Assembly (NCBI GenBank): GCA_903842025.1
Contig: CAIMKX010000006.1
Location: forward strand, 1-35,515
Direction of reading: 5' to 3'
DNA from: an uncultured bacterium
GTDB lineage: Bacteria; Patescibacteriota; Minisyncoccia; Phycocordibacterales; PALSA-1337
Length of the DNA: 35,515 nucleotides
The notes beneath the pieces are model-generated. The model searched no databases, was not told the DNA's origin, and worked only from the letters and a program-made list of their open reading frames with translations. This document shows, piece by piece, positions 16,165-28,848 of the stretch. How positions within the stretch are numbered: position 1 is the first letter of the stretch; every line of letters begins with the position of its first letter. The translations under genes and the position numbers were made by a program.

Positions 16165-16215
16165 GCTATTAGTATACAGAGGTGATTTGATAAAAAGCAA
16201 GTTTTTGAATTGCAA

Positions 16216-16275
16216 GGGACTAGTGAATCGCAGCTTGTGCGGTTCACTAGTCCCTAGTCCCTAAAAACTAGTCCC
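16216..16275. repeat. ACTAGTCCC inverted and direct repeats
   Basis: GGGACTAGTGAA (16216-16227) and TTCACTAGTCCC (16243-16254) form a perfect 12-base inverted pair with a 15-base loop. TAGTCCC then recurs at 16255 and, as ACTAGTCCC, near 16268. It lies between the divergent regulator and rpsB genes. Confidence 0.8.
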
Positions 16276-16309
16276 TTCTCACGAAGGTAATAATGCTCTC
16301 GAGCCAAAT

Positions 16310-21145: not shown

Positions 21146-21370
21146 ATGACTATCGAACCAGGAATTTACAAACATTCTAAGAAAGGTAACCTTTACAAGG
21201 TTCATTTTGTGGCCAAGCACTCAGAGACTTTGGAGGATTTGGTCATTTATGAAGCTTTGTACGAAAATGGCATGTCCAAGTTTTGGGCTAGGCCAATAGC
21301 AATGTTTACCGACGAAGTGATGATTGATGGTAAAAAAGTCCCAAGATTCCTATTTGTAAAAAAATCATGA
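21146..21370 (+). CDS. DUF1653 family protein
   Basis: A 74-residue protein with [20 protein letters not shown], then [20 protein letters not shown] and [12 protein letters not shown], the recognised DUF1653 pattern (G-x-Y-x-H-x-K-G-x-x-Y ... YEALY ... RP-x-x-MF-x-x-V). The fold is small and beta-rich; the function is unknown. It sits between pheS (one base gap) and pheT (ATGA overlap), so it is cotranslated with the synthetase. Confidence 0.88.
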
Positions 21371-23463
21371 ATATTTCAAGAAACTGGCTACAAACATATT
21401 TCGAAAATGAAATTCCTTCAGCTGAAAAGTTGGCGGAGTTATTCACTTTCCATTTCTGCGAAGTGGAGGGTGTTGAGAACTCCTTGAGGAGAGACCTCAA
21501 GGAAGCTGATTCGATTCTTGATCTCAAAATCCTACCAGACCGCGCTCATTACGCCCTTTCTCATAAAGGCGTGGCTGGAGAAGTTTCTTTACTTGCCAAA
21601 TTGCCAATAAAAGAGCGCTTTGTCAAAGAAATAGCGAGTACTATTAAAGAAGTACCAATCATTAAGATTGAGAATCCGAAATTCTGCCGTCGTTATACAG
21701 CTAGGATTAGCGATGCCTGCCTGCCGGACAGGCAGGTCGCACATCGATGTGAATCGCCCGCTTGGCTCAAGAACGCCTTGGAATCGATCGGCCAACGTTC
21801 GATCAACGTAATTGTTGATCTGACCAACTATGTCATGTACGACATCGGTCAACCTCTTCACGCTTTTGATGCGGATAAAGTAATCGGCAGCATTGTGATT
21901 CGGGCGGCCAAAGAAGGTGAAAAGATTGTCTTACTCGATGGACGGGAAATTACCTTGAATTCGACTGATAATGTAATAGCAGACGATGAAGGACCGCTGG
22001 TCATTGCGGGAGCAAAGGGAGGCAAGCGTGCGGAGATTTCCGAAACAACCAAGCGGATCATTATTGAATCAGCCAATTTTGATCCGACAGCCGTTCGAAA
22101 AACTTCAACAAAATATGACATCCGTAGCGATTCATCCAAGCGTTTTGAGAATGAGATTACGCCTGAGCTTGCCATTCATGGCATGCATAATGTCTGCGCA
22201 CTAATTCAACAAATAATGCCTGAGGCAAAGTTCGGTCCGATTGTCGATCAATATCTCGTCAAGGCCAAGCAAACTGTTATTGAATTCGATCCGAATTACC
22301 TTGAAGAAAGGCTTGGTGTGAAGGTGCCTTTGGATGAGGCCAAGAATATTTTGGAAGGGATGGGGATTGGTGTCACTGAAGGTAGTGTTCCTGTCATTCC
22401 CACGAAGGCGGGAATCCAGGATGTAACCGCAACATCGGGATCAAATGGTAATATCCTGGATTCCCGCCTTCGCGGGAATGACAAACGAGATGCTGACGGG
22501 AATGACATGGAGGCGAATGACAACAAATGGTCTCTAACCATCCCTTACGAACGCCTGGATCTAGTTATTAAAGAAGACATTGTGGAAGAGGTTGGCCGAA
22601 TCTACGGTTACGATCACGTTGTCGGAATCCTGCCGCCACCAAGCAATGAAAATAAATCGATCTTGCCGTCTTTCTACCTATCTGAAAAGATCAAGAATAT
22701 TCTGGTCAGTCAAGGATTCTCCGAAGTCAGCTTATACACTCTAGTTGAAAAGGGTGATATTGAAACAGCCAAGCCATTGGCGAAAGATAAGGCATTTGCC
22801 CGCAAGAATTTAAGTGATGGAATGCTGGCTTGCGTCGAAAAAAACGCTTTGAATGCTGATCTTCTTGGTTTGGAATCGATTAAAGTTTTCGAAATCGGCC
22901 ATGTCTTCAGTCATGAATCCGAAGATATCTATTTGGTTCTGGGCGCCGCTCAGATCAAGAAGATCAAAGGTTTGAATTCGGAGACGATTGTAAATGAAAC
23001 GGTTAAGAAATTGGAAAGTGAGTTGGGTGTAAGCCTCAAGGGACAACTTATTAAAAACAAGGCCGGCAATTACAGTGTCTATGAAATTAATCTAGAGCCG
23101 ATCATTAAATCATTCAAGTCGGGCACTTATGAAGCATTGAATTTGCATCCATCTTCGTCAAATCGTTATCAAAAGTTTTCCCTGTATCCGTTCATTGTTC
23201 GTGATATTGCCATTTTTGTCCCTGAATTAGTCACAGGCGAAAATGTTTGGAAAGTCATCGAAAAGGGGATTGGTGAAGCCAAAGCGAGCGACCTATTGGT
23301 CAGACACGCATTATTCGACACCTTCAAAAAAGAAGGCAAGGTTTCGTATGCTTTTCGGTTAGTTTTTCAGTCTATGGAGAGGACGTTGACCGATGATGAG
23401 GCCAATAAGATCATGGAAATTATTTATGACGGGCTGAAGAGGGAAGGTTGGGAAGTTAGATAA
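21367..23463 (+). CDS. pheT: Phenylalanyl-tRNA synthetase beta subunit (short form, with repeat insertions)
   Basis: A 698-residue subunit. The N-terminal OB-fold tRNA-binding domain is missing: the start [12 protein letters not shown] passes quickly into [20 protein letters not shown]. The B3/B4 editing region includes [20 protein letters not shown] and [14 protein letters not shown]. The B5 domain and [12 protein letters not shown] motif follow, and the C-terminal ferredoxin-fold anticodon domain has [13 protein letters not shown]. Two segments do not belong to the family: residues ~117-128 ([12 protein letters not shown]), translated from a palindrome, and ~343-390 (VIPTKAGIQ ... LDSRLRGND), translated from a dispersed inverted repeat. 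Both keep the frame. The start overlaps the DUF1653 stop. Confidence 0.95.
21716..21751. repeat. Two palindromes inside pheT
   Basis: CCTGCCTG (21716-21723) and CAGGCAGG (21729-21736) form a perfect eight-base inverted pair with loop CCGGA; it is followed at once by the perfect palindrome CACATCGATGTG (21740-21751). Together they encode an insertion that PheT homologues would not be expected to have. Confidence 0.88.
22393..22482. repeat. Inverted repeat with 30-bp arms inside pheT
   Basis: Arm 22393-22422 (GTCATTCCCACGAAGGCGGG then AATCCAGGAT) and arm 22453-22482 are reverse complements at 29 of 30 positions, with a 30-base loop. The arms translate as VIPTKAGIQ and LDSRLRGND, peptides known to arise from this widespread bacterial repeat. 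A degraded copy lies at 1083. Confidence 0.95.
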
Positions 23464-27085: not shown

Positions 27086-27496
27086 ATGTTCTTTACCTAC
27101 CTCCTCCTCTGTTCCGACGGTACTTTCTATGCCGGTAGCACCAATGATCTCGATAAACGTCTCCATGCTCACAATCATCTGAAGTCCGGCGCTCATTACA
27201 CCAAGATCCGCAGACCGGTAAAACTGGTCTGGAGTCAGAATTGCAGAACATATTCAACAGCCAGAAAAAGGGAAGCGGAGATTAAGAAATTAACTCGAAA
27301 GAAGAAACTTGTTTTGATAACAAAAAGGCCTCCCGAAACGAAAGGCCCGAACAAAACGAGGGGAAAAACTAGAGGCAATTCACATAGTGCCTTAGTGCGA
27401 TTTCTTCATCGCGGCTTGACCGATCGCTTGCATCGCCGGCAAGCGGATGCTCGAGCAATTCCGGATAGTACGGTTCTTCCTTCGTCCCGAAATTGA
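27086..27496 (+). CDS. GIY-YIG domain protein with unusual C-terminal extension
   Basis: A 136-residue ORF. Residues 1-~82 form a complete small GIY-YIG domain of the YhbQ type: FTYLLLCSDGTFYAGSTNDL, KSGAHYTKIRRPVKLVWSQ and ARKREAEIKKLTRKKK. Proteins of this subgroup usually stop near residue 80-95. Here the frame runs on for ~54 residues across the terminator of the opposite gene and then antisense to that gene's coding sequence, so the extension is probably not an evolved domain. Its own stop may have been lost, or the frame may shift near 27330. The domain is nuclease-like, but small family members have no firmly known role. Confidence 0.75.
   Translation: MFFTYLLLCSDGTFYAGSTNDLDKRLHAHNHLKSGAHYTKIRRPVKLVWSQNCRTYSTARKREAEIKKLTRKKKLVLITKRPPETKGPNKTRGKTRGNSHSALVRFLHRGLTDRLHRRQADARAIPDSTVLPSSRN
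27318..27347 (-). terminator. Intrinsic terminator of the zinc-ribbon gene
   Basis: On the reverse strand GGCCT and AGGCC (with 11 bases between) are followed by TTTTTG (27325-27320). It lies inside the end of the GIY-YIG reading frame. Confidence 0.65.
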
Positions 27497-28317: not shown

Positions 28318-28848
28318 ATGCCAACATCGACTCTTACAACAATTATTCCTACGGAAGTGATTAGTCAGAAGATCTTCATAATTCGTGGAGTTAAGGTAAT
28401 GCTTGATTTTGACCTTGCTGAGATTTATCAAGTTACAACAAAAGTTCTAAATCAGGCCGTTAAAAGAAATATTGCTCGTTTTCCACCCGATTTTGTTTTC
28501 AAGCTTAGTAATAGAGAAAAGACCGAGGTGGTCACAAATTGTGACCACCTATCAAACCTTCGATTTTCTCATCAACAACCTTATGCCTTCACTGAACACG
28601 GGGTTTCAATGTTATCGGCCGTATTAAAAAGCGCTCGAGCTATCCAAATGAGTGTATTTATTGTCCGTGCTTTCATAAAGCTACGTGAAATGTTGGCAAC
28701 TCACAAAGACTTGGCAAATAAGATTGAAGAGCTAGAAAATCGTCAACTTAAGCAAGGTGAACAAATTCTCGTTATTCATCGGATATTAAAACAGCTTATA
28801 GAAAGACCCGTTGAAATGCATCGAATTATTGGTTTTACTGGAAATTGA
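28318..28848 (+). CDS. ORF6N domain DNA-binding protein
   Basis: A 176-residue protein. The ORF6N (KilA-N/antirepressor-related) domain spans ~residues 10-110: SQKIFIIRGVKVMLDFDLAE, YQVTTKVLNQAVKRN, RFPPDFVFKLS and YAFTEHGVSMLSAVL. The C-terminal ~60 residues form a coiled coil (KDLANKIEELENRQLKQGEQ). Such proteins are common in phages and as single genes in bacteria and are presumed to bind DNA. The coding segment for EVVTNCDHL is a perfect 25-nt palindrome. There is no prophage around it. Role unknown. Confidence 0.9.
   Translation: MPTSTLTTIIPTEVISQKIFIIRGVKVMLDFDLAEIYQVTTKVLNQAVKRNIARFPPDFVFKLSNREKTEVVTNCDHLSNLRFSHQQPYAFTEHGVSMLSAVLKSARAIQMSVFIVRAFIKLREMLATHKDLANKIEELENRQLKQGEQILVIHRILKQLIERPVEMHRIIGFTGN
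28526..28550. repeat. Perfect 25-nt palindrome inside the ORF6N gene
   Basis: AGGTGGTCACAA (28526-28537), a central A, and TTGTGACCACCT (28539-28550): all twelve pairs are perfect. It encodes EVVTNCDHL in the middle of the domain. Confidence 0.97.

Follow-up and report, generated by a model that had tools for sequence, protein, structure and literature searches.

An ORF6N gene in the window—the whole stretch of DNA analysed here, 35,515 nucleotides in length—contains within its coding sequence a perfect palindrome that is, in our assessment, quite probably an operator bound by a dimer of the protein that the same gene encodes, although no binding or expression data are available. That the ORF6N protein binds the in-gene palindrome is inferred from co-evolution, with no binding measured, and we hold this part with high confidence; that the protein represses its own gene through the site is inferred with less support, again without expression data, and we lean only mildly toward it. 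The symmetry of the site, its conservation at the DNA level and its co-evolution with the protein are established by comparison of sequences; the dimer geometry and the roadblock proposed below are inferences with less support than binding.

A conserved palindrome inside the coding sequence

The window protein matches the Pfam ORF6N profile (PF10543) with 102.3 bits against a cut-off of 27.8, residues 17–102 covering positions 1–86 of 86 in the profile; the gene and its features are located in Table 1. The palindrome, AGGTGGTCACAA-A-TTGTGACCACCT, has 12 perfect pairs flanking a single A and encodes the peptide EVVTNCDHL, exactly as an earlier note on this DNA had described it. Only two perfect inverted repeats turned up when the window was scanned with a minimum arm of 10 and a maximum spacer of 8: this palindrome and another whose arms measure 11 and whose spacer measures 7. 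No second copy of the 25-mer was found in the window at up to 3 mismatches, and shuffles expect 0.

Table 1. Location in the window of the ORF6N gene, its palindrome and the codons that co-vary with it
Feature	Position	Strand	Remarks
ORF6N gene	28318..28848	+	176 aa, PF10543
Palindrome	28526..28550	+	Perfect, centre A28538; proposed in-gene operator, ~27 bp family-wide
HTH first helix (predicted), codons 30–37	28405..28428	+	AlphaFold model
Recognition helix (predicted), codons 41–50	28438..28467	+	K42, V43, Q46 and A47 co-vary with palindrome
Codon 46 (Gln)	28453..28455	+	Predicted reader of palindrome base pair 4
Palindrome base pair 4	28534..28542		A28534 paired with T28542
Codons 79–86, directly 3' of palindrome	28552..28575	+	Co-vary with outer pairs 8–12; possible wing contact; signal weaker than helix

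The earlier note had suspected a joint constraint on protein and DNA beyond chance, and had suggested that related proteins carry EVVxNCDHL, a peptide that tends toward such palindromes. When codons were redrawn synonymously from the gene's own codon usage and pairing was scored at positions 2–12 of the window palindrome, the mean was 7.19 of 11 pairs against the 11 of 11 observed, a value reached by 0.4% of redraws; thus the tendency of the peptide is real, yet it is insufficient as an explanation. Relatives were gathered by a protein search of named genomes, from which 80 of 353 loci were retained, and from other genomes by searches with proteins and profiles. The 80 named-genome loci over-represent the peptide EVVTNCDH, but not particular codons for it, because they were partly found with an EVVTNCDH seed. 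Gene transfer among these named-genome relatives is very broad and crosses phyla; the close relatives in named records include Patescibacteria (locus L037), to which the host probably belongs too.

The codons of EVVxNCDHL-type genes provide a direct view of the constraint. Across 77 unique genes of this type from many phyla (mean protein identity 0.60, third-position GC 0.27–0.94), the commonest codon has a share of 0.99, 0.90, 0.91, 0.96, 0.77, 0.96, 0.94, 1.00 and 0.75 at E, V, V, T, N, C, D, H and L, respectively, against 0.26–0.69 at all other listed conserved columns; synonymous sites are nearly frozen inside the palindrome and free elsewhere in the gene. The dual constraint is thus borne out by the codons and the redraws alike. 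The outcome that the note had named as a refutation, homologues that keep the peptide while synonymous sites freely break the palindrome, did not materialize, the commonest codon reaching 90–100% at E, V, V, T, C, D and H. Among 90 EVVxNCDHL readings, counted on both strands so that some are the antisense of EVVTICDHL genes, five of the six with EVVANCDHL couple the change from Thr to Ala (ACA to GCA) to a silent TGT-to-TGC change by which pairing is regained; the sixth, like one EVVPNCDHL reading, leaves the pair broken.

The suggestion that related proteins carry EVVxNCDHL was correct, but for one subclass only—others have different palindromes and different peptides at the same place. We assembled 191 ORF6N ORFs, unique by domain sequence and including partial ORFs. 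In 185 of them the best centre, taken anywhere within the domain, has at least 8 of 10 pairs (positions 2–11), and 183 of these have the canonical core, in which C and then A or G precede the centre and G follows it; of the eight ORFs without a canonical site, six fall under the pairing threshold and are fragment-like, and two have other cores. Peptides such as NRSQIVTG, LRFQIGTS and LISQIAIS are encoded at this place by palindromes that differ in sequence, with arms of up to 18–19 bp. Watson-Crick pairing is 0.87–1.00 at pairs 2–12 and 0.46 and 0.33 at pairs 14–15; family pairing is high to pair 12–13 and fades beyond. The centre falls at codon position 1 in 98 of the 185 and at codon position 2 in 87, so that the same DNA core gives different peptides in two frames.

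The site nevertheless stays where it is in the gene. In 173 of 191 ORFs, the domain's best palindrome is found 5–30 codons upstream of the FxExG motif, and the site occupies a single alignment column in 92 of 97 frame-0 genes; since the 185 centres were unrestricted within the domain, these counts speak for a single gene position, and the palindrome keeps that position while sequence, peptide and reading frame change. Outside the site, for comparison, the best palindrome that the same ORF offers has 7–9 of 11 pairs in 169 of 185 cases, against 10–11 at the site in 170 of 185. The median distance of the site into the ORF is 219 nt. The peptide alone as the cause of the palindrome is rejected by codon conservation together with the redraws, at most 1% of which reach the observed pairing in 151 of 185 genes. 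A stricter scan found in-gene sites in 182 of 191 genes: one site in 168, two in 11, three in 2 and four in 1. Tandem in-frame palindromes (at least two within one ORF6N gene) are seen at L133:1709-1795 and at loci L121, L152 and L251. In an alignment of ORF6N proteins, the C-termini have a conserved IGF motif, of which I171, G172 and F173 are nearly invariant.

Co-variation of the palindrome with a predicted recognition helix

An AlphaFold model, for which the protein alignment was the only input, places a helix at residues 41–50, preceded by one at residues 30–37. Outside the palindrome-encoded residues, mutual information links pair 4 to residues 46, 43 and 47, pair 5 to residues 46 and 43, and pair 7 to residue 42; the co-varying residues 42, 43, 46 and 47 share one face of the predicted helix 41–50. 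Residue 46, which is itself not encoded by the palindrome, predicts pair 4 from the centre in 167 of 177 genes: Gln occurs with A (118/127), Glu with G (30/30), Lys with C (11/11) and Arg with C (8/9). Likewise, pair 7 is G in each of the 133 genes with K42. Gln-Ade, Glu-Cyt and Lys/Arg-Gua are textbook contacts, so the code between residue 46 and pair 4 fits known chemistry. Divided by sequence source, the rule is kept in 80/81 and 27/30 genes and, for the sets found by profile, in 15/19, 17/17 and 27/29. The ten genes that break it comprise eight with a different base pair at pair 4 and two with a broken pair; most of the eight also differ at pair 5 and at residues 43 and 47, and they are mostly types of their own. 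Codons 79–86 co-vary more weakly (Table 1), and pairs 9–13 stay symmetric despite a weaker link to residues outside the palindrome.

Shared ancestry could produce such a link, and phylogeny as its sole cause is rejected by two tests. In 90 disjoint pairs of nearest relatives, with distances computed from other columns, the residue is the same in 48 and different in 7 where the base is the same, and the same in 2 and different in 33 where the base differs (P = 2e-15). On a tree of 170 genes, built with the helix and palindrome columns left out, 33 of 44 base changes fall on branches where residue 46 changes too, against a mean of 7.4 and a maximum of 16 coincidences in 200 shuffles. The rule was also applied to six plasmid records and one phage record obtained after it was fixed: the site was in place in six of the seven, and pair 4 was as predicted in all six, with three Q-A, two E-G (Legionella oakridgensis and Treponema saccharophilum) and one R-C (a phage contig in which pairs 1 and 3 are broken). 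The seventh, Haliovirga abyssi, has no palindrome at the expected place. Of the functions that the earlier note had proposed, an operator for the protein itself is the one that gains strong support from this co-variation, in the absence of binding data.

The note had also proposed an mRNA hairpin, which would make the selected feature a structure in the coding-sequence transcript involved in processing or translation pausing. Arms of 11–19 bp around a tiny loop could in principle form strong hairpins, but a preference for G.U, which selection on RNA would lead one to look for, is missing: at pairs 2–12 of 169 unique sites, sense-strand mismatches are G.T in 17 cases and A.C in 31, and the test of mismatch asymmetry is negative. 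Nor does a hairpin predict that helix residues track base pairs, and the pattern is common to two reading frames and to other families; the hairpin is contradicted, and we consider it very improbable.

A proposed operator, other readings and further sites

For the operator that we favour, we propose that a symmetric HTH dimer would lie across ~27 bp of the in-gene site, with its recognition helices (residues 41–50) on pairs 4–8 from the centre. Q46 would read the A of pair 4, and K42 goes with the G of pair 7; residues 79–86, which adjoin the palindrome-encoded loop, would probably contact the outer pairs, possibly as a wing. Bound ~220 nt into the ORF, the protein would block RNA polymerase whatever the promoter, and such a roadblock would limit the level of the protein itself and of the genes behind it. 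With the site inside the coding sequence, the gene would bring its own operator on every transfer—judged from sequence alone, the gene and a control switch of its own probably travel together. This offers a possible reason why single regulatory genes cross phyla, since the control site moves along inside the ORF.

Operators are already known inside coding sequences. The second operator of PurR, the internal operator of gal and lac O2 are repressor operators in coding sequences, with roles in autoregulation or looping; however, in these systems the main operator is at the promoter and the internal one is auxiliary, whereas most ORF6N genes have the internal site only. Furthermore, the gal and lac internal operators sit in the genes of other proteins. 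Sites within a protein's own gene are thus known for auxiliary operators (PurR) and, as discussed below, for replication initiators (lambda O and RepC). Our searches, limited to openly licensed papers, turned up no account of an in-gene palindrome or site in ORF6N, RhuM or Bro-N genes.

Second sites near the genes do not amount to a general arrangement. Of the 191 genes, 32 have a site with the same core in the 600 bp upstream and 16 in the 600 bp downstream, and some of these sites belong to neighbouring ORF6N genes. Pair 4 of the extra upstream sites is the same as the gene's own in 20 cases and different in 21; as only about half match, some upstream sites belong to paralogues or neighbouring genes. 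A promoter-proximal second operator as a general rule is rejected, an upstream site within 600 bp being present in just the 32 genes. The window gene has no further same-core site within 600 bp, and a simple scan found nothing convincing as its promoter, so looping cannot be argued there.

In the host genome (0.95 Mb, 56 contigs, four ORF6N genes), the 17-bp core GGTCACAAWTTGTGACC with up to 2 mismatches gives six sites, against 0 for the reversed control: one in the window gene, two in other ORF6N genes, one in a Bro-N gene, which carries AGTTGGTCACAAAATGTGACCAACT, one just 3' of an ORF6N gene, and one intergenic. The last (L263:1498-1520, contig 42) lies in the short gap between ABC-transporter permease and ATPase genes, the ATPase being named from its translation; its core is one that the helix of the window protein would be predicted to read, and it is possible that the site is a target in trans. 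When 379 genomes of the phylum were searched for GGTGGTCACAAWTTGTGACCACC, allowing 2 mismatches, the window's own site was the only one found. These counts bear on the idea of a selfish short palindromic repeat that has no role and merely landed in these genes. Extra and tandem copies exist, as does the intergenic copy before an ABC-transporter gene, but a dispersed repeat of the RPE or REP type should be present in many copies at unrelated places of a genome, and five of only six host sites are in or beside ORF6N or Bro-N genes (four inside, one just 3'). The palindromic elements of Rickettsia are also in-frame palindromic DNA within genes, but they are inserts in unrelated genes, whereas the ORF6N palindrome tracks the DNA-binding helix of its own gene. 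A dispersed repeat is thereby contradicted, and we give it hardly any credence.

Another reading, that of an iteron or replication origin within an initiator gene whose protein starts the replication of a mobile element, is not excluded. In-gene origins of the kind found with lambda O and RepC normally have several iterons. The lambda O gene has palindromic sites in its own coding sequence (the ori iterons) that vary by type along with the DNA-binding domain; however, lambda O initiates replication and has several iterons, whereas ORF6N genes usually have one site and show no evidence of replication. RepC of repABC plasmids likewise binds a site inside its own coding sequence, and there, unlike in ORF6N as far as can be told, the site is the origin and the protein the initiator (PMC2783167). 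The few ORF6N genes with tandem sites (2–4 in-gene copies in 14 genes) would suit an origin, but 168 of 182 genes have only one site, and nothing was seen that ties ORF6N genes to replicons of their own, although neighbours were not surveyed. We regard this reading as decidedly improbable.

Also not excluded is a signal that guides the gene's own movement, be it recombination, gene conversion or homing, in which the palindrome would be the target or the junction. The very broad transfer across phyla would agree with it, as would the tandem in-frame copies, the extra copies beside genes and a small gene for a GIY-YIG nuclease (27086-27496), upstream of ORF6N in the window. Against it, the DNA-binding domain is the sole Pfam domain in the protein. 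The recombination or processing site of the earlier note found no support as such, though co-evolution with the helix is compatible with any binding role and so cannot exclude it; we consider a movement signal unlikely.

The annotation of the ORF6N family implies a role as phage antirepressor; the window protein has an anti-repressor match in PHROG (E 2.9e-23), which is an annotation only. Roi of phage HK022, cited in PMC3430580, is comparable as a phage regulator of the antirepressor type. Close relatives are scarce in viral collections: 4 of 50,697 phage records contain one, another viral scan gave 2, and no relative of the window protein was confirmed in viral_contigs. A phage origin could not be demonstrated, the viral scans having given 0 and 2 relatives. 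A sequence search found no solved structure of any relative, and a fold comparison gave no match with E of 0.001 or below.

RhuM and Bro-N genes

The genes of the RhuM and Bro-N families have the same arrangement as those of ORF6N, with other sequences. In a RhuM sample of 32 ORFs out of 51 loci, the best palindrome is at one place in 30, and each helix motif is accompanied by its own core: CGGAA (once CGGGA) for T..E, TTCCA for A..K, AGGA for N..L and TGCAA for V..K/R. The site is present in five of five named RhuM genes obtained afterwards; four are of a helix type already met in the sample, and the core matches in all four. For Bro-N, 51 loci were scanned and only 25 ORFs passed the motif filter; the site is present in 23 of the 25, and co-variation is weaker, being confined to one stretch before the site.

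Taken together, and still tentatively—we would put it slightly short of an even chance that all parts hold jointly—these small mobile HTH families may each have placed their own operator in the coding segment that follows the recognition helix, so that one ORF would make up an entire circuit, limiting itself whatever its promoter. The specificities of helix and site could then act as immunity groups that silence newcomers of the same type and tolerate others, and in restriction-modification operons the circuit could delay or meter the genes behind; the part of the protein that possibly touches DNA would be encoded by the DNA that is touched. For a large uncharacterised family, the DNA target would become readable from the gene's own sequence; ORF6N would gain its first DNA-recognition code and RhuM a draft one, and operators can be predicted in tractable strains, such as that of rhuM on plasmid p5482 of Bacteroides thetaiotaomicron VPI-5482.

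On a plasmid of Treponema saccharophilum (L313), an ORF6N gene lies between genes annotated as restriction-modification subunits, and on a Methylophaga plasmid (L316) a RhuM gene lies between genes annotated in the same way; an in-gene roadblock at these loci could meter the downstream genes. Elsewhere in the window, a 37-nt inverted repeat (22392-22483, 92% complementary, 18-nt loop) lies inside a 698-aa ORF (21367-23463) and resembles a repetitive hairpin element, and overlapping inverted repeats built on AGGGACTAGT are clustered at 16214-16277.
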